Positions 13,976 to 59,769 of a DNA stretch of 64,000 bases are shown here, one piece after another (within the stretch, counting starts at the first letter, position 1; the number at the start of each line of letters is the position of its first letter). The position numbers were made by a program, and so were the translations under genes. A model generated the notes under the pieces. That model worked only from the letters and a program-made list of their open reading frames with translations, had not been told where the DNA came from and ran no database searches. Source of the stretch: Xestospongia bergquistia (Eukaryota; Porifera; Demospongiae; Haplosclerida; Petrosiidae); the NCBI GenBank assembly GCA_963965975.1, contig OZ014422.1:3991155-4055154 (forward strand), in the 5' to 3' direction.

Positions 13976-13984
13976 GACATTAAG
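13976..13984. repeat. MULE target-site duplication, left copy
   Basis: gacattaag, identical to 14,676-14,684; the paralogous uninterrupted site at 21,658-21,666 reads gatattaag. Confidence 0.88.
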
Positions 13985-14675: not shown

Positions 14676-14684
14676 GACATTAAG
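14676..14684. repeat. MULE target-site duplication, right copy
   Basis: gacattaag, exact repeat of 13,976-13,984. Confidence 0.88.
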
Positions 14685-14689
14685 GGACT

Positions 14690-16240: not shown

Positions 16241-16500
16241 TCATCAGCTGTTTCAGTTTCAGTCTCTTACACTGGATTGTTTTGGAAGTTCTTGAGTTGT
16301 TTTCTTTCTTGATAATAACTACAATAACAACTACTAATACACTACTAACAGACTAGCTCAATCATTATTATCATATGATGTAATTTATTACATAAATTAA
16401 TAATACATTGTTATATGCCATAAATGTGGGCATTAATTAGAATAAGATGTGGAAAAGATAATAGAGTTTGCACATAATCGTTTAAAAGAAGAGATACAGA
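16240..16500. repeat. Block P copy
   Basis: Contains ttacactggattgttttgga, the ctactaatacactac segment and ctcaatcattattatcat shared with 22,440-22,640 and 30,005-30,150. Not coding. Confidence 0.82.
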
Positions 16501-16919
16501 GAAAAGGAATGAGAAACACACGAAAAGTGAGACAAGGACTGAGAGAGAGAGTGGGAAAGAGAGACTGTGAGAGAGAGAGAGAGAAAGAGAAAAACACACT
16601 CTTATAGAGAGATATAGTGACAGAGAAAGAAGAAAGAGAGACTCTGAGGATAAGAGAAAGAGTAAGAGGTACTGCTTGAGAGAGACAGAGACTCTGAGTG
16701 CATGTCAGTGAGAGAGAGGGTCTGACTGAGAGAAAAGATTCTGAGAGAGACTTTGAGAGAGAGAAAGAGAGACTGCTAGAAAGAGTGACTGTAAGAGAGA
16801 TACTCAGATAGAGACTCCTAAAGTAAGGAAGAGAGTGAAAGAGAAAACATTTAAGAGACTTTAAGAAGGTATGTATGTGTGAGAAAGACTCTGAGAGTGA
16901 GACACTATGAAAGAGTGAA

Positions 16920-16962
<43 letters not shown>

Positions 16963-17235
16963 AAGAGAGACTGAAAGACACCAAGAGAGCATAAATGTGT
17001 GGGTGGATGTTAGAAAGAGAGGCACAGATTTAGAGTGAGAAACTATGATAGAGAAGGAGAGAAAGAGAGAGACAGAGACTGACAGACTTTAAGAGAGTGT
17101 GCGTGAGAGAGAGAGAGAAAGACAGACTCTTTGAGTGAAACACAATGAGAGAGAGAGAAAAGACTCTAAATGAGTGTGAGACAGAGAGAGATAGAGAAAG
17201 ATAAATAAAGAGCAATAGATAGAGAGAGAGAGAGA
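16500..17235. repeat. GA-rich array, unit 1 part d, with (GT)n
   Basis: GA units with a pure (GT)n run at 16,921-16,959. In unit 2 the corresponding position (24,190-24,240) carries (AT)n instead, a microsatellite change of motif after duplication. Confidence 0.88.
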
Positions 17236-17320
17236 AACCAATATACTTGAGTAGTCTAACTATTGTCAATATTAAAATAATGTGATATATACAGCTGATC
17301 AATGTGCCTCCTGTCTTACA
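17236..17320. repeat. Block Q, first part (interrupted by hAT1)
   Basis: Starts 'aatatacttgagtagtcta'; the block resumes after hAT1 at 20,051. Other copies: 24,510-24,670, 29,520-29,850, 33,805-34,020 with 36,341-36,590, and part at 36,870-37,080. Confidence 0.85.
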
Positions 17321-20050: not shown

Positions 20051-20480
20051 TTACACAGCCTTCCTCAATACTATAAGATATGATGTAATTAGTAAAAGGG
20101 TGTGGTCTCACAACATAGAGGTTGCAGAGGCATAACTAGCAACTAATTAATTATTAATAAGCTCCAACCATTGACTTAAAGTGTAAGAGCTCTTCAAGAT
20201 TATTGGTCGTGTTTTTAAACCAATCATAAATTTTGCAGGATTATTGGTAGGGTCTCCCTCACCATACGTATATGTAGCCATACAAACTATCATTTAAGAA
20301 TCTTCTATCTCTTGACCTAGTTTACCAAATCCTCCATTGAGAAGACCAACCCCTATAATTAAGTACAATTAATTGGTATTAATTACTGGTCACTGCAGTC
20401 CTCAGAGTGGCAAGCTCATTAGCTGTCTCAGTTTGAGATGATCCATAACGGATGATTTTGTGTATAATTAATAATTTTGG
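20051..20480. repeat. Block Q, remainder
   Basis: Begins ttacacagccttcctc and includes taagctccaaccattgac and ctcagtttgagatgatcca. It is shared with 29,520-29,850 and 36,341-36,590. No coding signal. Confidence 0.82.
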
Positions 20481-21078
20481 GTATGATAAGTTAAAAGAAT
20501 GAGAGAGTATTTTGTTCTGCAAGATACTACAAGAAAAAAAGAAGCGAGAGACTCTGAAAAGAAATAGATTGAGAGATACCGAGTGTGAGAGAGAGACTCC
20601 TAATGTGAGGGAGAAGAGACAGAGAGCAAGAAAGACTGAGAGACATGAGTGTGTGAGTGAGAAAAAAAGAGAGAGAAAAGGAATTAAAGGAACTGGGAGT
20701 GTGGGTGTGTGAGAAAGAGGCACTCTAACAGTGATAAACTATGAGAGAGAGAGAGAGAGTAAGAGAAAGAAAGAGATATAGACAGAGACAAAGACACAGA
20801 GAAAAAGAGATAGGGAAAGACTCTGACAGTCTCTGTGGATGGGTGAGAGAAAGGGAGAGAGAGTACAGAGAGGGAAAAAGTGAAAGAGAAAGAGATATAC
20901 AAAATAATAAGAAGAGAGAGACATTTTTAAAATGAGGGAAAGAGAGACATAGAGACTCCAAGAGTGATATAGAGAGACACTCTGACAAGGAAATACTATG
21001 AAAGAAAGAGAGATACTCTGAAAGATAGTGGGAGAGTGAGGGAGAACTTCTGTTGTAAGGGAGGATAGACAGAAAGAC

Positions 21079-21109
<31 letters not shown>

Positions 21110-22230
21110 CTCTATGATTGTTTCTTTGACAGAGAAAGTGAAAGTGAGAGAAAGAGTGAGAGAACGTGAGTATGTGTGTGCTAGAGAAAGCGTTTATGTG
21201 TGATACCGTATGAGAGAGAGACACACACATACTAACACATACAGACAGATTGAGACTCTGAGAGTGTGTGTGTGTGTGTGTGTATGTTTGTGTGTGTGTG
21301 AGGGAGAGAGACACAGACAGATAGAGTATAATAAGAGAGAGATACAGAGACATTGATAAGGAATGTGAGACTCTAAGAGAGAGAGTTCTAAAGTAAGGGA
21401 AGGAGAGACAGATAGACTGAGATAATCTGTGTTTGTGAGTATGAGAGAGAGAGACTTCTAAAGTGAGAGAGTGAGAGAGAGAAAAAGTGAAAGAATTTGA
21501 TAGTGTATCTCTGTGCTTAATAGAGAAAGAAGAGACTCCGAGAGTGATCGACTATGAGATAGAGAGAGAGGGATAGGGACTCAGAGAGTGAGAAAGAGAG
21601 AGACTGTGAGGGTGACAGACTATGAGATAGAATCTCTAACAGAGATTCTCCGAGAAAGATATTAAGAGACTATGAAAGTGTGTGTGAGAAAGGAGGGAGT
21701 GAGAGATACTTTGACTGAGAGAAAGAGATTTTGAGAGAGAGAGATAGAGAAACTCTGAGGATGTTTGTGTTTGTATGTGAGAGGATGACATGCATGTAGG
21801 GAAATAGAGAGACTGTGTGAGTGGGAGAAAGTAAAAGAGAGACACTCCAAGAGATAGACTGTGAGAGAGAGATTCCTAAAATAAGAGAGACATAGGCACA
21901 GAGAGATAGCCAAGCAGAAACTCTGAGAAAATCTGCGTGTGAGATAGGGAGAAAGAGAAATAGAGACTGATCAGGAGAGAGATTGTGAGAGTGAGAAAAA
22001 CAGAGAGAGAGTCTGAGAGTGAGAGAGAAAGATAAAGACAGAGAGAGAGACTGAGAGACTTTGTGTGAGAGAGACCCTTGAGTAAAACTCAACAACAAAA
22101 ACACTCTAAGAGAGATGCAGAGATAAAAGAGAGGGACTGACTCTGAGATAAAGAGAGGGAGAGTGAAAAAAGATAAAGAGGGATAGAGATATAGATAGAG
22201 ACAGAGAGAGAGATGAATACAGTCTCTCAG
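20481..22230. repeat. GA-rich array, unit 2 part a
   Basis: Repeats the order of landmarks of 12,590-14,980: gagagtattttgttctg, a (GT)n near 21,265-21,300, the MULE empty site at 21,658-21,666, and gaggatgacatgcat. Unit 2 lacks the MULE. No gene. Confidence 0.9.
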
Positions 22231-22359
22231 AGCAAGTGCATCAGCCGAGTAGTTTGAGGTCCATAAAAATAACCCTAATATTTCATTCAAAAAATAATGT
22301 AACCTGTTAAACTAACAGATCAAGTCAAAGGTCAACCAAAAATGCTACATCGAAACATA

Positions 22360-22640
22360 TTACACGTTATATCACACCAATGACTCTGGTACATTATATT
22401 AGAATATGTTTTAGTAAATCACACATAGGAATGGATTGATTTGCAAGTTCTTGAGTTGTTCATTTGTTGTCTTCTTACTAGTAGATTTATTGATAATCAG
22501 TATAATAACTACTACTAATTAACCACTAATAGACTAGTTCAATCATTATTATCACATGATATAATTTGTCATATAAAAAAACTATTTCATACATCATGAC
22601 TATGGGCAATAATTAGAGTAGGAGACAGAAGGATCTTTTT
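22360..22640. repeat. Block P copy
   Basis: Contains tagtaaatcacacatagga, ttgcaagttcttgagttgt and ctcaatcatt-like segments shared with 29,930-30,220 and 31,215-31,480. Confidence 0.82.
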
Positions 22641-22995
22641 TTTCCATAATTAAATTTTGTTCAAGAAGTTCTTTCGTTATAGCTAACCAAAAGTCTAAGT
22701 GAGTCATTGGTTTCTCAGCAGCTATATTATGTAGTATCCATGCATTCACTAGACTGAGATCTACTAGGTGAAAGAACACTCGCTTCCACCATTTCACTGT
22801 CCTATTTTAGTACTATAATAATCTGTGAATGCTACATAATTGGCTAGCATATGTGAATAGACATAAGACTGCAATATTTGATCACTTAGATCGACCACAC
22901 CTATGTATTGATTTTAGTTCTCTATCATCACAGGTTTAGTGATTTCTTCAACACCAGTGTGAGCTCTTCTTGTTCTCCTCTGTTTGACTAACATA
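22600..22995 (-). pseudogene. piggyBac transposase fragment
   Basis: The minus strand encodes NQYIGVVDLSDQ (about 22,880-22,920), then VKWWKRVFFHLVDLSLVNAWIL (22,735-22,800). These are the conserved D-S-D-Q and KWWKKVFFHLVDLALVNA regions of the DDE_Tnp_1_7 (piggyBac) catalytic domain, in the right order. The upstream part holds a stop and frameshifts, and N- and C-terminal parts are absent, so it is a fossil. It ends in a Block P junction ('gagtaggagacagaagg') that also occurs at 30,198 and in weaker form at 31,467. Confidence 0.85.
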
Positions 22996-23335
22996 TCATC
23001 ATTGTTAAATGTGATAGAGAGAGGGAGACACACTGACAGAGAGAGAAAGACTGACAGAGAGAGACTATTAAAGCGAAGGAAAGAAAGATAGATAGATAGA
23101 TGGACTCACAGTCACTCTGTGTGTCTCTCTCATGCACGCACACACAGACACACTCTGACACAGATAATCTGAGATAGATAGATAAAGTGAGAGTGAGAGA
23201 AGCCTCAAAGAGAGAGAGAGAAACAGAGAGAGAGAGACAGAGAGAGAGAGAGACAAAGAAATAGAGATAGAGAGACAGACAGATAGACACAGAGACAGAG
23301 AGACAATATGAGAGACAGAGAGAGAATCTCTGGGT
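22996..23335. repeat. GA-rich array, unit 2 part b
   Basis: GA/GACA-rich tract with gagatagatagata runs. Ser/Leu-rich frames on the minus strand are repeat artefacts. Confidence 0.88.
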
Positions 23336-23500
23336 GCAGGTTTATCAGCTATCTCAGTTTGAATCTCTTGCACTGGATTGATTTGCAAGTTCTTGTGTTG
23401 TTTATTTGTTGTCTTCTTACTTGTAGATTTCTTCATAACAATTAATTAAAAAATGAGGTAGAGGGTGTGGCTTATGGTACAATAGAAGTTCAATTATAAT
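23336..23500. repeat. Partial Block P copy
   Basis: Shares ttgcactggattgatttgca and gttgtttatttgttgtcttc with the other P copies. Confidence 0.75.
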
Positions 23501-24199
23501 CAGAGACAGAAACAAAGACTCAAGGAGAGAGAGACTCCATGAGTTAGCGAGTGTGAGAGTGAGAGACCATGACAGAGACACTCTGAGAGAGAGTCAAAGG
23601 GAGACAGAGAGAAAGAGAGAGAGACAAAAAGACAGAGAGAAAGAGGGAGAGACACATTAGTGAAACAGAGAGAGGTACTGTGAAAGTAAGATATTCTAGG
23701 AGAGAGAGAGACAGAAAGACTCTCAGAGTGTGTGCATAAAAAAGGAGGCACAAACAATGTGAAAATGTGAGAGATACATTGACTGCAAGTAAGAGACATA
23801 CTACAAGAGAGCAAGAAAATGACAGATAGAAAAAAAGAGAATCCTAAAGTGAGAGAGGGACTGAGAAACAGAAAGAGTGGGAGAGAGACTGTGACAGTGA
23901 GAAAAAGAGACAGAGAGACTCTTCTGATAGAGAGAAAGAAATAGTGACAGAGAAAGAAAAAAGAGAGAGAGAAGACTCTGAGGGTTAGAGAAACTTGAGA
24001 GAGACAGAGACTCTTGAGTGTATTTGTGCATGTTAGTGAGAGAGGGGCTCTGACTGAAAGAAAAAGATTCTGAAAGAGAAAGAGAGAGTTAGAGTTTGAG
24101 AGAAAGAAAGAGAAAGAGAAACTGTTAGAGAGAGAGTGACTAAGTGGCAGAAAGACTCTAAGAGTGAGACACTATGAAAGAGTGAAAGATATATTTATA

Positions 24200-36815: not shown

Positions 36816-38040
36816 GAGAGAGAAAAAGAGAGAGACTGAGAGAAAGTCAGAGAGAGTGACTATAAGAGAGAATACTACAATATATGGTGTAAGTAGTAAA
36901 AGGGTGTGGTATCGCAACATAGTGGTTGAAGAGGCATAACTAACTGTAGCAACTAATTGATTATTAATAAGCTCCACCCATTGACTTACAGTGTAACAGA
37001 GTTCTTAAAGATTATTACCTGTGTATTTTAACCAATTGTAAAATTTTGAACTATTATTATATTTTCCCTCACTATACAGAGAGAGACTGTGAGAGAAAGA
37101 GAACATCTGATAAAAAGAGACACAGGGACAAACATGGAGTGGGAGAGAGTCTAAGAAAGATCAAGAAACCTGAGAGAGGTATAGAAAAAAAGAGAAACAG
37201 AGAGAGTCTCTGTAAGTGACATTGTCTCTCTTTCTCTCTTGTGAGGCTCTCAAGAGTGAGAGAGACTCTGAGAATGAAAGATAGAGAAAGTCTCAGAGAC
37301 TTTCCAAAAGGAGAGACAGACTTTGAGAGAGAATGACAGACAGAGAGAGATCATGAGTGAGAGACTTTGAGAGTGAGAGAGAGAGATTTAGAGCAGTTAG
37401 ATACTGAGAGAGAGAATGAGAATGAAAGAGACACTAAGACTACAAGAGAGAGAGACACTCTGAACTCTGAAAGAGAGAGAGAGAGAGACAGAGAGAGACA
37501 GAGAGAGAAACAGAGAGAGAGACAGAGAGAGACAGAGAGAGACAGAGAGAGACAGAGAGACAGAGAGAGACAGAGACAGAGAGAGACAGAGACAGAGAGA
37601 AACAGAGAGAGACAGAGACAGAGAGAGAGAGAGAGAGAATGAGAAAAAAAAGATAAAGAGAGAGAGACTCCAAGATATGAGAGAGTCTGTGAATGAGAGA
37701 GAGACTGTGAAAATGAGAAATGCTGAAAGAGACAGATAAAGAGAGAAAGAGACTCCTTGAGTGAGAGAGAGAAAGACTCAAAATGAGAGACTTTAAGAGA
37801 GTGACTGTGAGACAGAGAGAGAGACAAAGTGTGAGAGAGAGTAAGAGGGAGAGACAGAGAGCACAAGAGGGAGATACTTTGAGATTGAGAGAGAAAGAGA
37901 GACTCCTAGATTTTAGAAGGAGAGACTGTGAAGAGAGAGAGAGAGGCTGAAAGACTCTGAGAGTGTGAATGTACAAGAGAGATAGAGACATTCTGAGTAT
38001 GGGAGACTATTAGAGCTAGAGAGAGGCAAAGATTGAGAGT
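36815..38040. repeat. GA-rich array with embedded Block Q piece
   Basis: GA-rich from 36,815; a Block Q piece lies at 36,870-37,080, then GA units run to the MULE at about 38,040, with GACA-rich tandem repeats at 37,475-37,625. Long frames on both strands (Arg/Glu on +, Ser/Leu on -) follow from the repeat and are not genes. Confidence 0.88.
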
Positions 38041-38858
38041 GAAAGACTCCAGCTTCATGCTACTTAAAGAAACAGCACAGAACTTAGGTCTACAAGTTGA
38101 ACCCCAGAATGTGCTTATTGACTTTGAAGTAGCATTACAACAGTCTGTTACCATTTGCTTTCCACAAGCAGAGAGAAAAGGATGCTACTTCCATTATACT
38201 CAAGCCATTTGGAGGAAAGTGCTGACTCTCGGGCTCCAACAAATTTACAGGGAAGATGCTGACTTCAAATTATACATCCATCAAGTGATAGCACTTGCCT
38301 TTGTTCCTCCAGCTTTTGTTAGGTTAGCTTGGAGTGGACTACAAGAAAATTCTCCAGAATTTGACAACAAGGAGAGTTTTGTTCAATACTTTGAAAGTAC
38401 ATGGATAAATGGCAACTTTCCTATTCGATCATGGAATGTTTATGCACAAGAGGGTCCTCGCACTAATAACAGCGCTGAAGGATGGCACAGTAAAATGAAG
38501 AAACTTGCTGGGAAATCACACCCAAACATTTTTGAGGCAGTCACCCTTTTCAAGTCTGAACAAGCTGTGACAGAAGTCACTTTAATGCAGCTGACTGCAG
38601 GAGGACTTCCAAGAAGAAAGACAAGAAAGTACAGAACCATGAGAACAGACTGAAAATTATTAAAGAAAAGCATGAAGCAGGAGATTATACATTACAAGAA
38701 CTTCTCAGGGCGTATAGCCACTGGGTATCTTTGTAATTACTGTTATTTAAATCATTATTTAAATCAATTAAAAGTTTTTAGACGAAATGGGACAATTGTG
38801 CATTTTGTTAGACGAAATGGGATGAGACGAAATGGGATTAGACGAAATGGCTATAAAC
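38040..38858 (+). mobile_element. MULE transposon, 5'-truncated, transposase half retained
   Basis: The right end contains four copies of the (a/t)gacgaaatgg motif (38,780-38,850) like the ends of the element at 13,985, ending ggctataaac. The left end is lost: transposase sequence begins abruptly within GA repeat. It is oriented opposite to the left-arm derivative, as expected for the inverted arm, but the 0.9 kb of GA array lying next to it in the left arm is absent here. Confidence 0.82.
38048..38653 (+). pseudogene. MULE transposase, C-terminal half
   Basis: The open frame 38,033-38,653 encodes NVLIDFEVALQQSV (second catalytic Asp of the MULE domain), GCYFHYTQAIWRKV (the C-x2-H-like motif after it), AFVPPAFVRLAWSGL, then NVYAQEGPRTNNSAEGWHSKMKK, which includes the R-T-N-N-x-x-E-G-W-H motif with the catalytic Glu. 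It ends with the basic GGLPRRKTRKYR. This is one uninterrupted frame of about 200 residues. The N-terminal third, with the first Asp, is missing, and the first few codons belong to the GA repeat. The deletion derivative at 13,985-14,675 keeps only the pieces on either side of this region. Confidence 0.88.
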
Positions 38859-41700: not shown

Positions 41701-42737
41701 CTATATCATGTCCAAGTTGAGAAGAGCCCTTCATTAAAAAAAGGTGTTTTATGCATGAAATGTAAGGTGAGGAATTTCCTTCCCTATTATACAGAATTAG
41801 CGCTGAAGCACATTTTGATTATATTCATTATTTTTTCATGATAATGTCATGCGAACACACCACGTTTTCTCTCATGTTTGTGAACATGCTAACTGGAAAG
41901 AGATTGAGAGCGCAAACAAAGGAGGTTGTTGTTAATGTCTATGAATATTTTGAGGAACTTGGCAGGTGTAAACGGACTGAAGGATCTCTGAAACGAACCT
42001 CTGATGCTAAAAAACTTTCACGTACCAGCATCAAGAGGTTACGGAAGGAGAAACTTAGCACAGGGGGAGCGGCCTTTTCAACTCCAACAAAGAGGTACAG
42101 ATTCTCCAGACGCCTGTTGGATTCCCAATACCACTCTCATATTCAGATCCAAAAAAATACTGGTGATTACCATGATGAGATGACTGCTGATCATTTTGAG
42201 GAGTGGTTTGGTACCAAACTTCTCCCAAATGTTCCACCTAACAGTCTAATTGTCATGGATAATGCCTCATATAATAGCCATCGTAGTGACCCTGTTCCAG
42301 TTCTGATGACAATTAGTGCTAGGCATTCTTGGTCTTCCTTCTTTGTCGAAAGTTTTTTTTTCAAAACCACAGTGGCTTTATAGCTGCCTCAAATCACAAA
42401 ATATGATACCTGGTTATTATTTTAATAATAATTGTTATAATATACCATTTGTTCATATAATTAGAATTGTAATTTTGAATGGCCACGTGAAAGATGGCTG
42501 ACTTCTCAAGGTAAAATGTTTTTTCATTAAACCCTTAAAGGTGTGCAATTTGAAGTATGTGAAAGGTATGCAATTGAAAACGTATGGCGTTTTCTAGTTT
42601 GGTACTTTCTCATAGTGCTAGAGAGCCAATTTTTATATATAAAATGCGCATTTGCAAGATAAATTGATTGTGCAAGTTTCATGTCGATAGCAAGTAAAAT
42701 GGCAAAGTTATTCATATGTCTGGATGACATGGTATAG
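41701..42737 (+). mobile_element. Tc1/IS630-like DDE transposon, internally deleted (right copy)
   Basis: Inserted in gypsy integrase at the same TA as in the left arm. Its frame 41,838-42,383 is open for about 180 residues. The N-terminal basic part (KRLRKEKLSTGGAAFSTPTK) is fused by internal deletion to DYHDEMTADHFEEWFGTKLL and SLIVMDNASYNSHRSDPV. The first Asp and the helix-turn-helix region are missing. Confidence 0.8.
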
Positions 42738-46827: not shown

Positions 46828-47774
46828 TTATTTTTCATTATCTTCTATTGTCGAAAGAGCAAGACGTGATCTATGAACAAGAGACTGAGATCCAATGACA
46901 TAATAGCTATAAACATGCTTTACCTGTTTAAAGTTAAATGACTTTTAACTAAGTGACATGCAGCAAGAGCAGAAACAAGAGAGAGTTCACCAGACAACAC
47001 TGTCCCACAAATGATACAAGCTAATTTGTCCTGCATTGTCACCTGGTTATCCTTTGAAGGATGGGCCATGAATACCTAAGATCTATCACACAAAAAGTGT
47101 CTTATTTGAGTGAGGTGTTTTTGTCATAAGCTTACTTGTACCTCTTCCTACAGTTCCTACTTCCAATGATGGCATAGTACAGCTAATATATAAATATTTA
47201 TAATAAAGTCCTCCTCTCTCCATAAGTGTGATACAATTGGAGCTACCAACTACTTGAGCAGGGTCCTAACAATATATCACACAAGTCTTCATACAAACAA
47301 AAGCTAAGTGAACAACCTTACTTGACCAGTTGCAATAAAGTAGCAGTAACTACGTTGGCAGCATGTGCGTTGAAACCAACAATTGAGCCTGCCATTGGTG
47401 ACCCCACAAGGTTCTTATTGGTATTAACATCAACGAGAGCATCTCTTGAAGTTTTGAGAATCTGATGTCCCAAGAATAGAGTTATTGCATATATTAATAT
47501 TAACATACATTTTCAACTACTTGAGCAGGTATTGTTGCATCACACACAACACGACCTTCAATCCAATTAACAGCAGAAGGTTTCTTGTCTTAATTACCAC
47601 TAAGACTAATTACTTACTCTGGAAACTGCTTCTGAAGAAACCTCAAGGAATTCTCAACACCCTAAACAATAATTATCAAAATTGATAAGCAACTAAAATT
47701 TTTTAAAAATTGCAGGCATAGTACATAAAATGTTTACCTTTGACAACATATTCATTCCCATAGCATCTCCAGTA
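46828..47774 (-). pseudogene. HMG-CoA reductase, C-terminal two thirds of catalytic domain (right copy)
   Basis: Minus-strand exons: TGDAMGMNMLSK (47,738-47,774), GVENSLRFLQKQFPE (47,618-47,661), [26 protein letters not shown] (47,509-47,588), [20 protein letters not shown] and [20 protein letters not shown] (to about 47,322), [16 protein letters not shown] to [14 protein letters not shown] with the TAA stop and frameshift shared with the left copy, and a last short exon with TAA at 46,828-46,830. Signature motifs of class I reductase (GDAMGMNM, NKNLVGSxMAGSIxGxNAHAAN, GTVGGGT) are all visible. The GDAMGMNM exon is interrupted by the HECT transposon; its upstream part is at 59,632-59,769. Confidence 0.9.
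47773..47774. repeat. TA target site, left side of HECT transposon
   Basis: The host exon is restored to ADTSTGDAMG if one TA and the element are removed; the other TA is 59,630-59,631. Confidence 0.75.
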
Positions 47775-48752
47775 TATGAGAGGTGATTAGTGCCAAAATA
47801 GTCACATTAAAGAGAGACTAGTGAAATCTTAGAGAGGGTAGTAAAGTCTTAAATAGGGTGGTGGTTTTTTAAAATAAGGTAGTGACTTTTTAAAATAGGG
47901 TAGTGACTTTCTCATAATATGAGAGGTGATTAGTGCCAAAATAGTCACATTAAAGAGAGACTAGTGAAATCTTAGAGAGGGTAGTAAAGTCTTAAATAGG
48001 GTGGTGGTTTTTTAAAATAAGGTAGTGACTTTTGAAAATAGGGTAGTGACTTTTTTAAAATAGGGCAGTGGTTTTAAATGTAGTAGCATTTAAATAGTAT
48101 AGTCCTTTTGAGCAAAATGGGTAGTGTCTTTAGGATAGTGTCTTTTAAAGTGATAACATTCTAATAGGGTTGTGTTTTTTAAATTAGATAGTATCTTTCA
48201 ATGTAAAATATTGTCTTTTGTGCAAAATGATAGTCTATTTAAAAAAGAGTAGTGTTTTTACAAATACAATACTGAGCTTGAGTTCTTTTACTGAGTGATA
48301 ACATTCAAAATAGGATATAGTCTATCGGAAACATAGGGAAGTGTTTTTTGAAATCAGGATAATGCTTTCAAAGTGATAAGATAGTAGTTTTTAGATATAG
48401 GATAAAGTCTTTGGAACAAAGTAAGACTGCTACAAGATTGTATGGTTGATAAATACAAGGGTTGGGTCGAGGGCTGGCTCTAGAAATTAGGGAAATTGAA
48501 TGTCTTCATAGTGCTTCCATTATGCATAAAAAGACAATGACTTATAAATTAACTAGCGAGGTGAGTTCAAAACTGATGACTTCCCTTGTTAAAAATCTTC
48601 AAATCTATTTTTTCAAGGGTTTGGAGTGCTGCAAAGATTCCCAAAGAAGAACCTGTTCTGAACAAGCAATGAAGTATAAATTAAATACAGAATGTTATCA
48701 CCACATTCTCTTTATCATGGCAATTTGAAGTTGATCATACTTATAATACCAC
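47775..48752 (+). repeat. Left terminal inverted repeat of HECT transposon
   Basis: Pairs with 58,582-59,631. The outer 700 bp is a series of short units of the form gggtagtgactttttaaaat. The first 143 bp are tandemly duplicated (47,775-47,917 and again from 47,918), joined through ctcataatatgag. The inner part includes gcataaaaagacaatgactt and ggcaatttgaagttgatca, both matched inverted at the other end. Confidence 0.9.
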
Positions 48753-48812
48753 CAGAGTCTACTACATTATCAGCTCCTCGTTATCTCTATAGCCCGCTTT
48801 GTCTTTATTTCT

Positions 48813-48819
<7 letters not shown>

Positions 48820-48850
<31 letters not shown>

Positions 48851-48860
48851 TCCTCTCTCT
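48820..48860. repeat. (TC)n microsatellite
   Basis: Nearly pure tctctctc run just inside the left inverted repeat. Confidence 0.9.
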
Positions 48861-49139
48861 TCTATTCACACATCCAACAATTTTCCTTCAGTATATTTTC
48901 CTTTTTCCCACTTGAACTCTGTGCTAATATCTCAGCCTTCATACAACCATGATTCTCTTTATTTGTCTCTTGAGTATCTATCCATCTAATCTGTCCATCA
49001 GTCCTTTCTGTCTGTTTATGTTACCATTCCTACTCTCATCTCGTTTAAGATGTTTTTGCCAAATGTAATAAATTCTTTAGAATTTTTAAATTTACTTCTT
49101 TTATTCCAAATTTTGTTTCTCTATCATTTATACATATGG

Positions 49140-50205
49140 TCAATAATATTGCTTACTATGGTTGGTCAGTCAGTATGGTCAGTATGGTTAATCAGTGTTG
49201 TTGCTCACAATGGACGTTCAATCAGTATGGTCAGTATGGTTAGAATGATCAATTGGTCAGTGTTGGTCAGCATGGTCAGTCAGGTGCATCAGTATGGTCA
49301 ATAGAGTTGCCCAGTTAATATGGTCTGAATGGTCAATCAGTCAGTGTTTGTTCAAAATGAGTATGATAAGTCAGTTTTTGTCATTATGGTCAATTAGCAT
49401 TTTGTCAATATGCTGATTTGATCAATATATGGTTGGTCAGTGTTTGGTCAATATGGTCAGTAGTGTTACTTACTATGGTCGTTCAGTCAGTACAGTTGGT
49501 TAGTACGGTTGGTCAGTTTTGGTCAATATCAGTGTTAGTCTCACTATGGTCAGTTGAGTTGGTTGGTCAAAATTGGTCAGTATCCCTAGTATGGTCAAAT
49601 GGTCAGTGTTGGTCAGTATAGTTGTAGTGTTACTTATTATGGCTGGTCAGTCAGTTTGGTCAGTTAGTTATCTTCAGCTGGTAAATATAGTTGATCAGTG
49701 TACTGTCATTCAGTGTTGTTCAGTATTATCAATAGTGTTGCCTATTATGATCAGTTAGTCAGTACAGTCAGCAGTTGGTCATTACTGTATGGTAAGTATG
49801 GTCATTATGGTCAATTGGTCAGTATGATCTGCCAATGTTCTTCAGTATTTTCAGTGTTTGGTCGGTATGTTCATGTAAGTCAGTGTATGGTCAGTATGAT
49901 CATTTCATCTGTATGTTTGGTCAGTTTTAGTCAATATGATCAGTAGTGTCGCTTATAATGGACATTCAGTAATTGTGGTTGGTCAGTCTTTTGTCAGTTT
50001 GTCAGTATGGTTGGTTCAGTCAGTATGCTCAGTATGCATGGTCAAAAGGTCATTGTTGGTCAGTATGATTAATAGCATTGCTTACTATGATTTGTCAGTT
50101 GATATGAGTGGTCAGTGTTTGGAAAGTATGGTCAGTATGGTAAGTTGGTCAGTAGTCAGTACAGTCTGTCAGAGTTGGTTAGTATAGTATTACTTACTGT
50201 GAATA
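49140..50205. repeat. Minisatellite with ggtcagtatggtcagtgtt-type units
   Basis: About 1.06 kb of diverged 9-12 bp units around tatggtcag / ttggtcagt. Open frames rich in Trp, Ser, Val across it are artefacts. It lies between the left inverted repeat and the HECT gene. Confidence 0.9.
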
Positions 50206-51472
50206 TTGTTAGAGTACTTAGAACTCATTACATATAGAACATACATTTATTACATACAGATGATGTGATGGATAACATATACAATACTTATATAATTACT
50301 TATATATCACTGATGATTGAAGATTAGCAGGTGATGTAAATATGGCCAACAGTAACACTCTTTAACATCTTCGTTAAAGCATGTACAAGTGTATCTGTGA
50401 CCTTTTTTTATTATTGTTACTTGTATTAAGAGAGGGGCTTCTATTAATGTGCAGCCTTTCAAAGTGTTTCTTACTTGTTTATATTTGTTATCTTTCAAGG
50501 AGACCTGTTTTGCATATGTACCCCACCATCATTGGACCGGACATAACTCTTTTCAAGCTAATACCAGGAGGATAAATTGTGCCTTTTGGTCACTTAACAT
50601 TTTAATATCGATGTTTTTTTTAAAATTGTTTTTAATATTTTCATCAAAGTATCTAATCTAGTTGTTGTCTCTTCATGCAGACCGTGAAGTCAAGCCATCG
50701 ATTATACCACTTGTATTACACATGTCTCACACTGGTTTTATTTCTATCAGAACACATTGTGTAAATATAATATGCTTAAATTATATTATAATAATGATAT
50801 CATTATCATTATCATTCCTCACCAAGAGCAAGTATAGTTGTTAAAGGTGAAGAGCAGGTTTCAGTGTGGATCATGTCAAAGAAATTGTTCAGACCAAAGT
50901 AAGTATGTATAGGTACAAAGAGACCAGGATCATGAGTTGAGACTTGAAACAATACTAAGGTCAATTGATAACCCAAACTATTGTTGGCACTATTGATGGA
51001 AAGATATAGTGTTGCTTGACAGTCGAGAGGTAAGTTGTATGCTGAAAGATTAGCCAAAAACTATTATAATTCCATAATGCTATCATTATCATTATTAGTG
51101 TTATTGTTATTACTAATATTAATATTACTATTATTATTTTGTTGTTGTTGTTGTCTCAGCTTAAACTTCATTCTTGCCTCTTTTGGTCTTCATAGTGCAA
51201 TGTATAGACTCTAGATGGAGTTTCAGTGAACGCATATATATGGTATTAAAGCTGTTTGTCATATATCTGTACTTCACATATATAATACTAACTCTAGCAT
51301 TGATTTAGCAATTTATGTCAATAATTGTATTGATAATTACATTTTTTAATAAGGTTGGCACGTCTTTTCATTGGCGGGAAATTAACGCAAAACTAGACTT
51401 AAGTTAAGGCTAGTAAGACTTAGAGAGAAGAGATCGTCATTTCAGTCATAGATACCGGAGAGTACAGTCGTC
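50206..51472. other. Upstream region of HECT gene, no gene recognised
   Basis: AT-rich, with att/gtt trinucleotide runs near 51,070-51,160. Promoter elements for the + strand HECT gene should lie here, but I see no motif I would defend. Short frames at 50,381-50,844 are unsupported. Confidence 0.5.
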
Positions 51473-54400
51473 ATGGCAGATCAGACGAGGACAGGAGACC
51501 TTAGGCAACAAGTGGTGTCAATATACAATAGTTTGTTGAACGCTGTCGATGCGCTGGAGAGTACTAGTCGACCTAGCGGTAGCGGGATCTCAAGTGTACC
51601 CAGTTGTCACGAAACTAGTAATAGTGGCATATCACGATTGTCAAGTGTTCTCGAACCTTCGCAGACTTCTTCCAGTTCCGAAATAAAACACTTATTCCAT
51701 TATAATACCAGCTTTGGGAAACGTAGGAATTCGAAGGGAAGTGAGAGCCTAAGCAAAAAGAAAAAAATAAAAACTTGGTCACATGCATTCGTTTGTTTAA
51801 GTTGTCCCGATCAAAATGAGCCACCTGACAGTAAGACTAGAGCTAAGTTGCAGCTAGCAGGTTTAGGAGAGAAGAGGTTGTCGTTATTTCACGATGGAGG
51901 CCCAGAAGAGCTTCATGAAGAACTCATGCAACAATATCCTAAACTGTCTTCTGGAGGAGGTTACGAGTTACTTCGTGCCAGTGGTAATCGTAAGCTTGAA
52001 ATTATTCCTGTGCCACATGAAGGATGCTCAGTCAATTTTCTGAGGAGTGTTGTACACAGTCCCAAGTGTATGTTCGTCCAATACAGAGAGATTTAGACAT
52101 GACCCCTTCTCTAATTAATGTAAGTTTTATATGATGTAAAAAACAATTGTTTAGTTTGCTTTATTAGCAATGGTTACCTATATCACGACAAGAAAAATGT
52201 CTAGAATGTGGCAATCTAGTTCCCCTTCACATGTTGAGAGAGCACATTCTGGCATGCAAGTCAACTCTTACTGGAGAGTGCATGTTTACACAAGCACACA
52301 CATAATAAGATTCACAGGCAGAATGGGAGGATCCGGTTTATATTAAGCATATAGCAGGTTTAAATTTTTGGGAGTTCTTTACTTTTTTGTGAAGAGGAAT
52401 AGTGGTAGTTTAATACAAGGATATGAGTCTGATCTATGCTTATGGACAATGGTGGATGGCTAGTATGCATTTCATTTTATGTCAGATATGTCATCGTTCA
52501 TTGGTCTATATGCATTATGCAAACCTACCAACTTGTGTAAAAAATATCATCTTCAGGCCTATTGAGGTTTGGTATAACATATGTAGACTTCACATCATGT
52601 TACACACACGTACACATGTGTATGTCATGTATCAGTACATCTAATATTCTATATATATTTCATATAATTATATAGATGAAGTTCAATTAGCTGATGAGTC
52701 TGATGATAAAGAGATGATCAGTGACAGTCCAGAAGACATGGTAATGAGCTTATAATTGCTATTTGTCAGCTACCTCATATACGTTGGCCTTTAGAGTAAT
52801 GATGATGATTCTATGCTGCAGTACGCAATCCAGTTAAGTCGCCAAGAGGCAAGTCTTACAGAGCCAAGGTTAGTTATTAATTGAGGTGATTCTTATATGA
52901 TTTATATAATTATTGATCAACTTTTATCTAGCTATTTTCAATCTTGTGAAATTAGTAGTATTGATGAAGTTATCACTATGCTTAGACAAAATTTAATGGA
53001 CAAATGCTTCACAATGGTAATTAGTAGAACCAATGTACTTGAAGAATTTTTTCGGAGGACTGATAAAAAGTCATTTGACCCATCAAAGAAGCTAAGAGTA
53101 AGTATGTACTTTGATTTCGTTGACTGTTCCCATTACATCCATATAGGTGGAGTTTGTTGGTGAAGAGGGGATCGATACAGGTGGTCTGACTAGGGAACTG
53201 TTTACACTACTTGTTAAGGCTATTTCTCCAAAATATATTCAAAATGGTTATCTTCTTCATGATTCCATTGCTCTTCGAGTAAGCACATACTAAGAATAAT
53301 TCAAGTAATTAAATTTTGTTTTGCAGGACAGGGTGTATTACAAAATGGGACAGCTTGCATCTATCTGTTTAGTGCAAGGAGGTGCTGGGTTTAATATTCT
53401 ATCTTTGACTGTATTTGAGTATGTATGTGGTAAAGACATCTCAAATATCATAATCCCTTTTGAAGACGTCATGCATCTTGAAGCAAAAGAACTGATTAAT
53501 GAAGTAAGTAGATACAGATACGTTCTTGTAAGATATGCATTTCATATTACTATTACTTGGTTCAGTTGTCTAAGTACGTATTTGTTTCTTGACAACAATT
53601 CACTTACTATAACTAGAACACATGTGGATCTGAACATATCATATATACCTTGATATGAGACTCACATAATAGCAATGTGCCACTATACCTAATATGAAGA
53701 TGCTACTCTTGTGAGGTTTCATGTTAAATGTAGCCTGTTGCAGCAGACATGCTCTTACTTTAAACATGTAAATTATGAGCTTGTTATAATACATGATGTC
53801 ATAATATTATTTTTCATTTAATTTCAGATACAATGTGTGTCAACTTTAGATGAACTGAAGGATGTATACTCTACACACATTGACAAACTAAGTGACTGTG
53901 GTATAACAAAGCCAACCAGCTTATTAACACTTGAAGACAAATGGGTAGTAGCCCATTCTATTGCACAGTATCATTGCCTATTAAGACATAAGGCAGAGCT
54001 CGACCAATTCAGTGATGGTCTGGTAACCTTAGGTACCAGAGATGCTATAAGAAAGTACCCAGTTCTATTGTCAGAGTTTTTCACCAACTGTAAGGTCGTC
54101 ACACTTACAGCAGGTGAGACAATTCATATGCATGGTAAATCTATATAGACAGGAAGTGTTTGTATGTATTCTATAAGATCATTATGTTGTTATGTTAACT
54201 GTTATTATACTTTGCAGACTTGATAAAGAATCTCTTTAAGGTCATGTATTCTGAGGTTGGCTCCAATGAGAGGGCGAAAGAAGAATGTACATACATTTAT
54301 TTCATAGATTATTTGGAAGAATGTGAAGAAGGTATACAAGATTTACACTTTTTGTTTGCTACATATACAAATATTGATTGTGTAATGTATGTATATGGTC

Positions 54401-56008
54401 TTGTATATGAGTGTCTTATCTACATTCTCTTGCATGGTTGTAGCTGAATCCATTAAAGAAGATATCCATGAAAAGAGTAAGTTTGGGATATTTTTGTGTG
54501 GGAGGAGGAGTGATAAACCACATAAATAGGTCTAATGACTGCCAGACACAAGTGTAAAAAAGTCTTGGTGGTCTTTACCAGTGATTAGTTAGTACAGTAG
54601 TCCCTCTTTTGAGAGACCACTCCCGTGAAAGACCACCTCTTTTGAGAGACCATAATTTGCATGTACCCATGCATTGCAATACAAAACCACCTCTAGTCAA
54701 AGACCACCTCTTTTGTGAGCCCAGAGACCACTAACATTGTGCATTTTTAAGACCATTAGAAGTGTAAATTGCATGTAAAATTCAATGCATGCACATAATT
54801 GCAGCTGTAGTTAACTAAAGTAGAACTACCAACCAGAGATGTCTCTGACTACATTAATTAATAACAATTCTTCAGTACTTAATGCTTTTTTAAATACATG
54901 TACATACAAATTGATCCAACCCATTACCCCGCCCACCTCTTTTGGGAGACCACTTTTTGTTGGATACGAGGGTGGTCTCTCAAAAGAGGGACTACTGTAC
55001 TAGACTACTAGTGATATTATATTGGAGAGGTGAGCGAAAAAGCTTATAATTGAAACTATTTTACCAAGATTTTTTTAATGGTACTGTTGTTACTGTAAGG
55101 AAGTAACCTTTTGCTATGTTTCAAATGTTAAACTACCCAAATATGAAGTCAATAGCATTAATCAGTCATGCCCAATCATTCATCACAGTAGAAGTAATCA
55201 TATTAATTGGGTGCTATGTACATCAGCAGTTGTTTTATGTGTGTTAATTTCATTTGTCATCCCCAAAAGTCACTTACAAGAAACACGATGAAAGTATATA
55301 TATATACATGCACAGGTGGCCCAAAACAATCTTTGAACTGACTGGTACGCAGACAAATTATGGCATTTGAAGCTTTCATGTGAACATTTTTCCTAAACCT
55401 GTAGAACATAGAAGTACTAAACTCACTGTGCCACTTTGTTATTCTTAGAACAATATTTTGTCAAGAGACTAGAAATAATTGATAAGGTGCCATTTCTGGA
55501 CATTACAAACATTTTAGCGCTATATTATACTTTTATCTGGCTAGTAGTTGATTAAGGCACTACTTAAATTTGTTGATCACCTGTCTTATGTGTATGTTGC
55601 TAAAGAGACAAAAGAGAGTTCATTGCTGTATTATCAAATAACTAAAATCCCAACTTATGTATTGTTGTACTCATCAATTGACCTGATTTAATAAAATTAT
55701 TTAATCTATTTGTTATTACAATTACTGGGTTGACATAGCCATCACTTTACCATGACTGTTTCATTTTATAGAGATAAAGGTGACCTTACATTCTGTTCTT
55801 AACTTTTTTTTTTGGAGCAGAAGAAATTCCTCCCATGGGATTTCCATGTGATCCTGTACTGCGTTTTAATGCCAGTGATCTTTACCCAACAGCATCCACA
55901 TGTGCCATTGAGCTGACATTACCAACTCAATACAGTGGTGATTATGAGTCTTTTAAAAATGCAATGGATGTGGCACTCACATGTCATGATGGGTTTGGAA
56001 AAAGTTAA
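51473..56008 (+). CDS. Transposon-borne HECT-type E3 ubiquitin ligase, 11 or more exons
   Basis: HECT ligases carry ubiquitin as a thioester and pass it to a substrate lysine. Exons: 51,473-52,119 (Ser-rich start, SLSKKKKIKTWSHAFVCLSC, FHDGGPEELHEELMQQYP, a frameshift before VYVRPIQRDLDMTPS); 52,168 to about 52,300 (C2HC finger CLECGNLVPLHMLREHILAC); 52,676-52,740; 52,795-52,868 (UIM: DDSMLQYAIQLSRQEASL); 52,932-53,097; 53,147-53,278 (VEFVGEEGIDTGGLTRELF, HECT N-lobe); 53,327-53,503; 53,828-54,113; 54,218-54,331; 54,444-54,476; and 55,772-56,008 (C-lobe IPPMGFPCDPVLRF, catalytic Cys in YPTASTCAIELTLP, final TAA). About 680 residues. Introns are GT-AG, mostly 50-320 bp, with one of 1.3 kb holding a MITE. 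Two single-base shifts (near 52,062 and in a T10 run at 55,804-55,813) break the frame. It resembles animal G2E3-like HECT proteins. Confidence 0.85.
54593..54999. mobile_element. mariner-like MITE in HECT intron
   Basis: Ends are tacagtagtccctcttttga and its inverse, about 28 bp of near-perfect inverted repeat through gagagaccac, starting at TA dinucleotides. The interior repeats agaccacctcttttg several times and has no frame. 407 bp. Confidence 0.88.
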
Positions 56009-56192
56009 CTATCCTGTTACACAATGTACATGCTCATTATCTCTTAAACTGTATACTGTCAATATATCTCACAAACTGTGTATGATCAGTATTCATAATC
56101 AGCATTACTTCTATTGTCACTTGTCAGTACTTTCTGTCAGGTATTACAATGATTTAATGATCAAATTTATTTGATTTCTTTAATATTGATAC

Positions 56193-58376
56193 TCACAATT
56201 CTGGTGTAAAAATTAACAGATTTGGAAAGGGTGTTATTCTAATTACTGTCATAATCTGTTCTTCACAAAAATCAACTGTTGCCATATACAAGTCAATGCC
56301 ATAGTTGGTTGAGGGAGAAAGTACTTGAACTGTTTCCTCTAGTTCAGAGTAATCACTTTCATTCAGAGGACATTCTATAACAGGAACAATAATTTCATTG
56401 GAAGTACTCAGATCATCTTCTGTTGATAATGGACCATCCCAGTCAACTCCATATAGTTGTGCCTCCTCCTGTTGAAAGAAACAAGACTAGTCAAGTGCAT
56501 ATAGACATTTGTTAAGGCACAATGTGTAATAGATAATGTACTGTTACAGTACTATGTGGGTTATATGGCATGAGGAGTGTGGTCTCAACTCAAGACTGAT
56601 ACAGCACTCAGCTTTGTCTTCTGCTGTATTAGTCTCTTGACCACACCCCTCAGTGCCATATAACCTGTATAGCACTGTAACTGTACATTATCTGGTTTAT
56701 TATTACATTAACTGGACTTTTCTTTCTTGTCAGCTATACTGTTTGACATCATTCGTTGCCATGCGTTACTAAGCAGAAGCCAATGAAATTCAAGGTGACG
56801 AAAAAGAAGAGTTGACAAGGAAGAAAAACCCGAGCAGAAAAGGAAGATATGGTCAACTGAGATGACCAGCATGAAGCGTTCCTTGGAAAACGATCAATAA
56901 TCTCAATGACAATAATTAATGTTAGAATCATTATTGAATGTGCAATATCAGACATATTGAACGCTTCCTGGTTTATGGGAAAAATAGAATGGATGGTGTT
57001 TTTCATCCACCCACGTAAGTAACAATAAATATATATCTATATAATATGAAATACCTCTGTTTGCTCATCAGGTAAAGGTTGTCTACATAGTTCACTTATC
57101 CAAAGCTGCATTGGACTAAGATACCCTTCAGATGAAAGAGGATGATTGTTCCAAGCGTCCTGAAAGAGACGTAGTGCAGAGTTTATTCTTCGTCGTATGT
57201 ACACATAATGGAGACAAAAGAGATGTATATCATCATCAATATCCAATATGCCCTGATCCTCCATGTAGTGAAACAGTTGGTAGAAAAGAATAGTACATTG
57301 CAGAAACACATCACGCCAGAGCCTCTCAATTCTTTGGTTGTGGACACTCTGTCCAGTAATGAAGCTACCTCGACCTGGTCCTCTGAGGGGATGTTGAAGC
57401 ATGAATGCTGCAACACGTACATTTTCACCACCTCTATCTGAACGTACTCTACTTGGCAGTCCAGTGGCTCTTACTTGGTCAACAAACAGTTGTAGGACAG
57501 TTTCTGATCGATTATTGTCAGCGCAATGTAGGTATATTATTCTACGACTGAATCCATCAATACATCCATGAATGACAAACCTCCATCTATAAATTAAACA
57601 GAAAATGATTATAGACCCAATTATGATATAAATGTGATAGTTGTAACTGATTAACTAAATAATAACTTCACCTGATCAATTTATGATTACCATCTATGTG
57701 ATACAGAGACCCTTGGTGCTACCACTCTGTATTCTTGTCTACGAAGACATCTTAATTGACGCATCATTGTTCCTTCAGGACAGATTCTTCTTTGGGAGTC
57801 TCTGATTCTCCACTGTTGTATTCTAAACCCTTGAGATAATAGATGCCCATTCATTTGACGGTATCCACACATGGGGAATTGATCATGAATACTTTTTATC
57901 AGTCTGTCCAAGTCGTTGTCTGTTAGCTCTGAATACTGGGAGTGAATAGAAAGACCATACTGGGACAGCCTTCTGTGAAGAGTTCTCACAGACACCCCAA
58001 GCATCTCTGACATTTGGGGGACAGTGAAGTGATTCTCAACGAGATATAACAATTGCTGTCGTGGAATAACAAATCTAGGCCGGCCAATGAGTCCATTGTA
58101 CTCAACTGGGGGTGAACTTTGCTCTGTATTTTCTGAAGCACGATTCAGAAGCACGTTCGTAAGCATGTCCAGGGCAAATCTGATAAAGTTGAGTCCTGAC
58201 TGCTCATTTAAACTTAGTACTCTTATACTTTCTGCAACAACAAATTCTCGATAAACAAGCTCCAAAGAGAGTAAAGATGATTCTAAAGCATCACAGCATA
58301 TGTTTCTTCCGTCTAAGAGAGCTTCAAAGTTGCTAGTGATCCGCCTCAGAGCATTGATACTCCACTCAGAAGACAT
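56193..58376 (-). CDS. Integrase-like DDE transposase of the HECT transposon, 3 exons
   Basis: Minus-strand exons: 57,672-58,376, 57,055-57,586 and 56,193-56,468 (stop TGA at 56,193-56,195), GT-AG introns, phases consistent. Exon 1 has an alpha-rich N-terminus, [20 protein letters not shown] and a helix-turn-helix [20 protein letters not shown], then [19 protein letters not shown] as in IS3-type transposases. The first catalytic Asp is in [10 protein letters not shown] at the end of exon 1, after a one-base insertion near 57,715. Exon 2 has [19 protein letters not shown], the second Asp in [11 protein letters not shown] and Glu in [12 protein letters not shown], a DD36E spacing. Exon 3 is an acidic tail with [12 protein letters not shown]. 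About 500 residues. It would cut and join the element's long inverted repeats. It is convergent with the HECT gene. Confidence 0.88.
56533..56691. mobile_element. Hairpin MITE in transposase intron 2
   Basis: The 159-bp sequence is almost one long imperfect hairpin: ataatgtactgttacagtac...tctgctgtattagtctcttg folds back onto the second half. It lies within intron 56,469-57,054. The remaining intron sequence (56,700-57,050) contains nothing recognised. Confidence 0.85.
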
Positions 58377-58581
58377 AGCTCACTTATATTGAATTGGATA
58401 TTCTGGTATCGAGTATGTCTGACACAACACCTATTTTAATAAGCAATTGTGTAATAACAGTTAATAATTATAACAACCCACTGACAACCAGGTAATTTCA
58501 ATTAAATAAAGAGTTGATATGAAACTTAGTAAATATTATAAAGAAATGTTAAAGTTTAATATTATAATAATATGCCCTACC

Positions 58582-59631
58582 GTATTATAAGTCTGATCAA
58601 CTTCAGATTGCCATGATAGTGAGAGCATGGTGATGACATTCTGTATTCAATTTATACTTCATTGTTCCAAGATGTTTAGGAGCACTCCAAACACTTGAGA
58701 AAATGGATTAGAAGGTTTTTAGCAAGGGGAGTCCTCAGTCTTGAACTCACCTTGCTAGTTAATTTAAGTCATTGTCTTTTTATGCTTACTCTGACTGAAT
58801 GGAAACAACCAAATTTCTGACATTTGAGGAATAATGACGTGATATCATTAATTAGATGCAATATTGTTGTCTTGAAATAACAAATATACATGTACATGTA
58901 CCTGTGTGCTCAACTAGAGATGAACACTGCTCTTGAAACATTTACATTTCACTCTGAAGACATTCAAATTCCATAATCTCTAAAGCCAGCCCTTCAACCC
59001 AACCCTTGTATTTATCAACCATACAATCTTGTAGTATAGCAGTCTTACTTTGTTCCAAAGACTTTATCCTATTTCTAAAAGCTCCACCCTATTTAAAGTA
59101 GACATCATTTAAAAATTACTATCTTATCACTTTGAAAACACTAGTATCCTGATTTCTAAAAACACTTCCCTACATTTCTAATAAACTATATCCTATTTGA
59201 ATGTTATCACTCAGTAAAACTCAGTGTTGCATTTGTAAAAACACTACTCTTTTTTAAATAGACTATCATTTTACACAAAATACCAAATTTTACAATGAAA
59301 GATGCTATCCAATTTAAAAAACACTACTCAATTTACAATTTACTCAAAAAAGTACTACCCTCACTTAAATGTCACTAGACTGGCACTAATTGACTGCTCT
59401 ATTAGAATGTTATCACTTTAAGAGACACTATCCTACTTCTAAAGACACTACCCTTTTCGAAATAGACTATCATTTTGTACAAAAGGACTACACTATTTAA
59501 ATGCTACCTGTTTAAAAATCACTACCCTATTTTTAAAAAACCACTACCCTATTTAAGACTTTAGTACCCACTCCCAAGATTTCACTAGCCTCTCTTTCAT
59601 GTGGCTATTTTGGCACTAATCACCTCTCATA
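58582..59631 (-). repeat. Right terminal inverted repeat of HECT transposon
   Basis: Inverted copy of 47,775-48,752, with the short units here reading aaaaaccactaccctattt. Unlike the left end it is not duplicated at its tip. The end cacctctcata abuts TA and host exon sequence ctagtatcagcacgg. Confidence 0.9.
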
Positions 59632-59769
59632 CTAGTATCAGCACGGAACATAACATTTATTAATCTTCTGGCAACAGCAGTGTGGACAGACTTAAAATTA
59701 AGCATATCTACTGGTAGAATTGAATACCTCAGCTAGCTAACTTCATCCTTTAACAAAGAAGGGCCATCC
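59632..59769 (-). pseudogene. HMG-CoA reductase exon, upstream half (split by transposon)
   Basis: The minus strand reads EVFNSTSRYA, then after a one-base shift KSVHTAVARRLINVMFRADTS, matching the reductase segment that precedes TGDAMGMN. Together with 47,738-47,774 it forms one exon. A stop-containing start (near 59,735) and the frameshift show the gene was already damaged or is decaying. Weak further matches upstream (FASGSTNR near 60,030-60,050) may be the next exon, but I am not sure. Confidence 0.82.

Follow-up and report, generated by a model that had tools for sequence, protein, structure and literature searches.

A degenerate IS3EU-type transposon of the sponge Xestospongia bergquistia with a HECT ubiquitin ligase as its probable standing accessory gene

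IS3EU (GingerRoot) transposons are described, in the part of the IS481EU paper drawn on here, as elements with TA..TA ends, usually a 6-bp target-site duplication (TSD), and an IS3-like transposase (PMC10045372). In the TET+ IS3EU elements of fungi, an alpha-kinase gene lies opposite the transposase gene with a TET/JBP gene between them, and the TSD is 6 bp; in the sections used here, the authors link the TET/JBP dioxygenase to escape from silencing (PMC12730594). We analyzed a 64,000-nucleotide stretch of the X. bergquistia genome (hereafter the window; contig OZ014422.1, positions 3,991,155 to 4,055,154) that contains a transposon in which a transposase gene and a HECT ubiquitin ligase gene face each other (Table 1). 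With a probability of about 0.82, this element is a degraded copy of an IS3EU-type transposon with two genes, one of which, for a predicted HECT ligase, is a standing accessory gene. The ligase is taken as a standing part and not as a chance passenger because the same facing pair was found in three distant families of this genome and apparently also in other genomes. These families are called lineages A (the window copy and L009–L013), B (L023–L028 and L033–L038), and C (L031 and L032).

The terminal inverted repeats (TIRs) of the window element are about 1 kb per arm, the length given in a preliminary description of this DNA. Their in-register blocks are 82–97% complementary, and their ends read TATGAGAGGTGATTAGTGCC/GGCACTAATCACCTCTCATA. 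The TA..TA termini (TATGAGAGG..CCTCTCATA) occur in the window element and in its sister copies. TSDs were collected from other copies, as had been proposed. Both ends were found in six copies, three of which have an exact 6-bp TSD (CTATGA in L009, TATATA in L010, and TTGTTG in L018). Among the other three, L011 has a shared 7-mer (TTACTTG), the window element has flanks that agree at 5 of 6 bp (CCAGTA/CTAGTA), and L017 has no clear duplication. The 6-bp TSDs together with the TA..TA ends across copies show that the family duplicates 6 bp and not TA, so the TA target of the preliminary description is ruled out.

The gene on the minus strand has three predicted exons. The protein has an N-terminal helix-turn-helix (HTH; Pfam PF02954, 6e-5) and an rva_4 integrase core (PF24764, 8.6e-69) with the D-D-E motifs, which confirms the transposase named in the preliminary description. 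On its rva_4 DDE transposase, TA..TA ends, and 6-bp TSD, the window element is assigned to the IS3EU-type cut-and-paste transposons. The two convergent genes proposed earlier were also recovered, each with predicted splicing. The HECT gene (51473–56008, plus strand) runs toward the transposase gene, and the gap between the coding ends is about 0.2 kb.

The predicted HECT gene model has ten exons with GT-AG junctions and gives a protein of 609 aa. In a sequence search of the PDB, this protein matched the HECT domains of AREL1, HUWE1, RSP5, and the NEDD4 family. The best match was AREL1 (1.1e-6, residues 271–607), and the alignment places TASTC of the protein on TAHTC, the catalytic Cys. The Pfam scan of the spliced model found a ubiquitin-interacting motif (UIM; PF02809, 2.7e-4, exactly at the Pfam cut-off) and a HECT domain (PF00632, 0.0031, below the cut-off) and no other domain. 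No Pfam family was found for the N-terminal domain. At 52168–52302, a C-x2-C..H-x3-C finger can be read, with zf_C2HC_14 at 0.006 and zf_UBZ at 0.069, both below cut-off. The C-lobe scored better in the other lineages (2e-8 in lineage B and 1.6e-8 in lineage C), and the catalytic Cys motif is TASTC in A and B and VNAC in C, aligned to TxxTC of other HECTs. The second gene is thus read as that of a putative HECT ligase with an N-terminal domain, a C2HC/UBZ-like finger, a UIM, and the catalytic Cys. This is the domain content that the preliminary description had called a full-domain ligase. The intact reading frame implied there did not hold, because of a one-base change, unless an early splice donor is used or the assembly errs. 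Its reference to G2E3-like ligases is likewise not supported. G2E3 has N-terminal fingers of the PHD/RING type, and such a finger is absent from the spliced model, which was the range of the scan, and from the finger exon, which is C2HC-like.

The frame change near the end of HECT exon 1 was seen against L012, which alone among the sister copies retains this region of the gene and itself has an in-frame stop. By this comparison, exon 1 appears to reach 52119 (..YVRPIQRDLDMTP.., a motif shared with lineage B), where the window copy is one base off. By eye, no frame-consistent GT-AG join of the finger exon to the UIM exon was found in the window. Transposase exon 1 is likewise one base off against six other copies. 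Because both genes have one-base frame changes relative to sister copies, the window copy is probably inactive; alternatively, the assembly may contain errors at two places, or an early HECT splice donor may be used. What the family as a whole encodes is evident from the other copies.

We searched the genome (146 Mb, 21 contigs) for other copies. The left terminus gave 39 matches and the transposase core 112. Near copies L009 and L010 (97%) retain the last HECT exon as well as the transposase; L012 has transposase exon 1 and the beginning of the HECT gene, and L011 has the transposase only. The search with the HECT protein gave at least 79 matches (72 of 207 candidates scored), and 37 of the 46 clusters were less than 10 kb from a transposase match, 34 of them convergent. 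The search with PF00632 (127 of 127 candidates scored) gave 106 matches in 58 clusters; 24 clusters had a transposase no more than 10 kb away, in convergent orientation in 22 cases, and the other 34 had none that close. Both locus lists were then merged by hand; weaker HECT fragments, transposase rows weaker than ~1e-22 (one lineage-C row was kept), and any second piece of a locus already listed were removed. On this count, a convergent HECT gene lies within 3 kb at 43 of 65 transposase loci and a non-convergent one at a single locus, against a mean of 0.1 and a maximum of 2 under random placement, a model in which the sizes of C2 and C14 were guessed. A convergent transposase stands beside 44 of 63 transposon-type HECT loci. 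This repeated linkage (43/65 loci; 22 convergent among the 24 of 58 clusters) leads us to reject a one-time capture of the HECT gene, the outcome against which the preliminary description had proposed a search for other copies. Together with the co-divergence and the equal-sized source contigs described below, it supports a two-gene transposon.

The two genes diverge in parallel, as the preliminary description had expected of such a transposon. The mean identities of transposase and HECT C-lobe were 0.92 and 0.93 within lineage A, 0.84 and 0.86 within B, and 0.95 and 0.97 within C; between lineages, they were 0.49 and 0.51 (A–B), 0.51 and 0.28 (A–C), and 0.47 and 0.31 (B–C). The distances of the two proteins were highly correlated (Mantel r = 0.92, 14 pairs), with p-values driven by the three lineage blocks. 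For this analysis 15 pairs were aligned and L035 was left out; L024, L025, and L027 were not put in. For L023 versus L028, the point values of dN/dS were 0.34–0.38 for the HECT N-exon (177 codons) and 0.32–0.37 for the transposase (390 codons).

All four lineage-C transposases have a convergent HECT C-lobe, and by eye an N-domain-like tail precedes the HECT domain in the same order. A "CUE-like" stretch noted by eye in lineage C was not confirmed by Pfam and is not claimed. Most of the 34 unlinked HECT clusters were assumed to be host genes and served as an internal contrast. We fetched 16 of them and used 15 in the trees, several being partial; L052 was excluded because its C-lobe was not clear. 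In the C-lobe tree with these 15, lineages A, B, and C grouped together (FastTree, 0.926), and IQ-TREE gave a UFBoot value of 85 for A + B. At least one unlinked HECT gene (C4:6538077, 89% to lineage B) is an orphan of the transposon type.

In a public protein set, the lineage-B transposase had 1314 relatives and the HECT N-terminal domain had 412 (alignment A1). We compared the sizes of the longest source contigs for the best 120 of the 1314 with those for 119 of the best 120 of the 412; the last N-domain row, whose size is not among the transposase rows, was left out. Eight sizes of at least 6 kb were equal (6403, 14019, 93468, 113353, 113766, 656817, 1243036, and 1579912), against 0.007 expected with jittered sizes. 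The pair of size 1579912 is probably from the same species because its transposase equals that of L023. The transposases of the other seven pairs are at least 40% different from lineages A and B. Their N-domains are 38–57% identical to lineage B and have no counterpart among the 34 own-genome matches; therefore, these pairs probably come from other genomes. Transposase and N-domain distances of the pairs co-vary (r = 0.79 for 9 pairs and 0.89 for 11 pairs).

A search with the HECT protein found none among the 7999 candidates scored from a set of 5.8 billion proteins; the division of the gene into many exons may be the reason. The eight pattern stretches in viral contigs included no relative. 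Among contigs of prokaryote genomes, the transposase was found on three (L057–L059) from a metagenome-assembled genome of a sponge symbiont. These IS3EU-like genes are probably host contamination of the bacterial assembly; the three contigs gave no HECT match better than E 0.1 and, at 3.4–4.2 kb, are too short to judge.

Lineage B has a further feature. In all four well-covered elements (L025–L028), which are young copies, the TIR encloses the N-terminal half of the gene for the HECT protein, comprising the start, N-domain, finger, and UIM; in L028, for example, this half is at 2152–3408 (plus strand) and 8361–9617 (minus strand). The unique middle of the element holds the remainder of the HECT domain. 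Two motifs were unmatched: the left finger motif in L027 and one of the exon motifs in L025. The inner blocks of the TIR arms are 98–99.8% identical, and one outer block of L028 is 96% identical; the outer ends were not reached. Because the N-half is inside the TIR, a second copy of it stands upstream of the transposase in the same direction. Fusion of this copy to the lineage-B transposase is not supported: the best splice acceptor ahead of the transposase Met and the donor of the UIM exon differ in phase. Weaker in-phase AG sites exist. The TIR-encoded N-half could reflect shared promoters, a free N-half, or mere growth of the TIR.

A decayed lineage-B transposase/HECT pair also occurs in near-identical copies, mostly mid-contig, on C4–C7, C11, and C13–C15, in large repeat units; those of C6 are about 115–200 kb apart (e.g., 3424800, 3558852, 3697174, 3844381, 4045882, and 4160726). 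In two large palindromes (C10:3768395–3780421 and C10:3377499–3393217), each arm has a HECT/transposase pair or most of one. Beside the lineage-B element of L023, a 631-aa open frame (7376–9268) is by eye a pogo-like DDE.

Several observations weigh against a standing two-gene transposon. A convergent HECT gene within 3 kb is missing at 22 of the 65 transposase loci, some of which are decayed or array copies. Many of the counted copies are in near-identical arrays and are not independent; therefore, the independent units are lineages and not loci. L056, a largely open-framed rva_4 transposase lineage, has no HECT match within 400 kb, and derivatives without their own HECT gene (L011 and L018) have target duplications. 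These cases and the 22 loci speak against the ligase being a required partner, one of the roles suggested in the preliminary description. The dN/dS signal of L023 versus L028 is weak for the HECT mid-exon (0.51–0.69, 80 codons) and the C-lobe (0.71–0.86, 76 codons). The apparent linkage in other genomes consists of equal contig sizes, from which the identity of the contigs is deduced, and the HECT membership of the N-domain there is extrapolated from this genome. The A + B + C clade of HECTs against the 15 unlinked C-lobes has weak support (UFBoot 74), so the HECT gene of lineage C may have been gained separately. HECT genes would then have entered a preferred position for accessory genes twice, once in the A + B lineage and once in lineage C. 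Such independent gains would also accord with a lineage-C C-lobe that is 24–35% identical to A and B when the transposases are 43–54% identical. However, the lineage-C HECT domain is preceded, by eye, by a tail that is N-domain-like and in the same order, and it has the same convergent position; both argue against two gains, which we consider unlikely.

Uptake of a host HECT gene once by one transposon, followed by neutral carriage, is strongly disfavoured. The frame change of the window copy, the mere pieces of HECT in L009, L010, and L013, and the dN/dS of the short C-lobe piece are what would be expected of such a passenger. However, three lineages about 50% apart in transposase have the HECT gene at the same place and in the same orientation, the apparent linkage in other assemblies comes with co-varying distances, and the N-exon has a dN/dS similar to that of the transposase. 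An artefact, that is, unrelated genes that adjoin in a repeat-rich region, might be suspected from the other transposon-like frames and repeats in the window, but it is refuted by the linkage in one particular orientation, seen at 43 of 65 loci where about 0.1 would be expected, and by the enclosure of both genes here in one TIR pair.

In the favoured reading, the DDE transposase would act on the long TIRs and insert the element through a 6-bp staggered cut, a chemistry suggested by its family; the TSDs themselves are observed. Inward promoters in the TIRs may drive both genes. In the HECT protein, the N-terminal half (N-domain, C2HC/UBZ-like finger, and UIM) would bind substrate and ubiquitin, and the Cys of the C-lobe would pass the ubiquitin on. 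As substrate, we tentatively favour, at somewhat less than even odds and by analogy, a host protein of silencing, chromatin, or repair at the element, because fungal IS3EU elements carry a TET/JBP dioxygenase and an alpha-kinase opposite the transposase, according to the same part of PMC12730594. A ligase directed at the transposase or its post-integration complex, limiting copy number or freeing the ends for repair, ranks behind a host factor and seems rather improbable. The fixed convergent pairing and the co-divergence with the transposase fit a protein–protein partner, and the duplicated N-half in the lineage-B TIR could serve self-regulation. However, linkage alone also gives co-divergence, partner binding is a conjecture, and the TET/JBP gene of the fungal relatives was linked by its authors to escape from silencing (PMC12730594, same sections).

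If a transposon lineage permanently has an E3 ligase of its own, the ubiquitin system would be linked directly with DNA transposition or with escape from silencing by the host, and the transposase and the ligase would form a two-component system in which the role of the ligase could be worked out. HECT gene counts in such genomes may also be inflated by transposon genes, as 24 of the 58 clusters here are within 10 kb of a transposase. A wider proposal can be made, although it is doubtful that all its parts hold jointly: a large animal IS3EU clade would consist of a transposase plus a dedicated ligase essential for transposition or anti-silencing, the TIR N-halves of the young lineage would act as a ligase-dead, dominant-negative brake, and many orphan HECT or N-domain gene models of animals would be transposon genes.

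Table 1. Features of the transposon copy, in window positions; exons are predicted.
Feature	Position	Strand	Remark
Left TSD, CCAGTA	47769..47774	.	matches 59632–59637 at 5/6
IS3EU-type two-gene transposon, lineage A copy	47775..59631	.	TIRs; termini TATGAGAGG..CCTCTCATA; sister copies
Left TIR	47775..~48750	+	143-nt tandem duplication at outer end; inner edge approximate
~21-bp tandem repeats within left TIR	47851..48070	+	possible transposase binding sites
HECT exon 1, N-terminal domain	51473..52119	+	one-base frame change near 3' end vs L012
C2HC/UBZ-like finger reading of HECT gene	52168..52302	+	QEKCLECGNLVPLHMLREHILACK; 3' splice boundary tentative
HECT exon, acidic linker	52676..52740	+	
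HECT exon with UIM	52795..52868	+	
HECT exon, start of HECT N-lobe	52932..53097	+	
HECT exon, N-lobe	53147..53278	+	
HECT exon, N-lobe	53327..53503	+	
HECT exon, N-lobe	53828..54113	+	
HECT exon	54218..54331	+	
HECT exon	54444..54476	+	
Short inverted-repeat (MITE-like) insertion in last HECT intron	54590..55002	.	separate element; 37-bp inverted repeats, 95%
Last HECT exon, C-lobe	55821..56008	+	catalytic Cys codon 55901–55903 (YPTASTCAIEL)
Transposase exon 3, C-terminal part	56193..56468	-	
Transposase exon 2, rva_4 integrase core	57055..57586	-	second D (RSDRGGENV) and E
Transposase exon 1, HTH and first catalytic D	57672..58376	-	one-base frame change near 3' end
Right TIR	~58582..59631	-	inner edge approximate
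Right TSD, CTAGTA	59632..59637	.	

Elsewhere in the window, other transposase-like open reading frames, by eye hAT-like, MULE-like, and of a further DDE type, were seen at 18392–19872, 37997–38653, and 41766–42383. The region 12974–24171 has long minus-strand open frames of a CT-rich repeat (Ser/Leu/His-rich) with strong strand skew.

The kind of transposon is known, and an IS3EU transposon with a HECT ligase as a standing second gene appears to be new. No paper that joins "IS3EU" and "HECT" or describes such an element was found in the open literature searched, judged by titles and the starts of abstracts in the broader searches; a prior description is possible in Repbase and in subscription papers, which lie outside the search. 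MuDR of maize resembles the window element in having TIRs around a convergent transposase and accessory gene, and differs from it in having a MULE transposase and a 9-bp TSD. To our knowledge, its accessory gene mudrB does not encode a ubiquitin ligase. Compared with AREL1, HUWE1, and the NEDD4-family ligases, the predicted protein is alike in its HECT region, which aligns with theirs, and in the catalytic Cys of the AREL1 alignment; it is unlike them in that Pfam finds HECT and UIM alone and in that the C-lobes of lineages A and B branch apart from the 15 unlinked ones. An alpha-kinase as the companion gene was rejected for this genome, since none of the 15 PF02816 matches (C2, C5, and C13) lies within 900 kb of a listed transposase match.

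The closest known systems are those with which we began. With IS3EU/GingerRoot, the window element shares the IS3-like DDE transposase, the TA..TA termini, and the 6-bp TSD. It is set apart by the HECT gene, the words "ubiquitin" and "hect" each occurring 0 times in the part of the text used here (PMC10045372), and by the TIRs of this genome, which range from about 1 kb in lineage A to at least 2.8 kb in lineage B. The TET+ IS3EU elements of fungi, as far as the cited sections describe them (PMC12730594), are alike in superfamily, in an enzyme gene opposite the transposase, and in the 6-bp TSD. The difference is in the companion gene, which is an alpha-kinase gene with TET/JBP between in the fungal elements and a putative HECT ligase gene in the window element.

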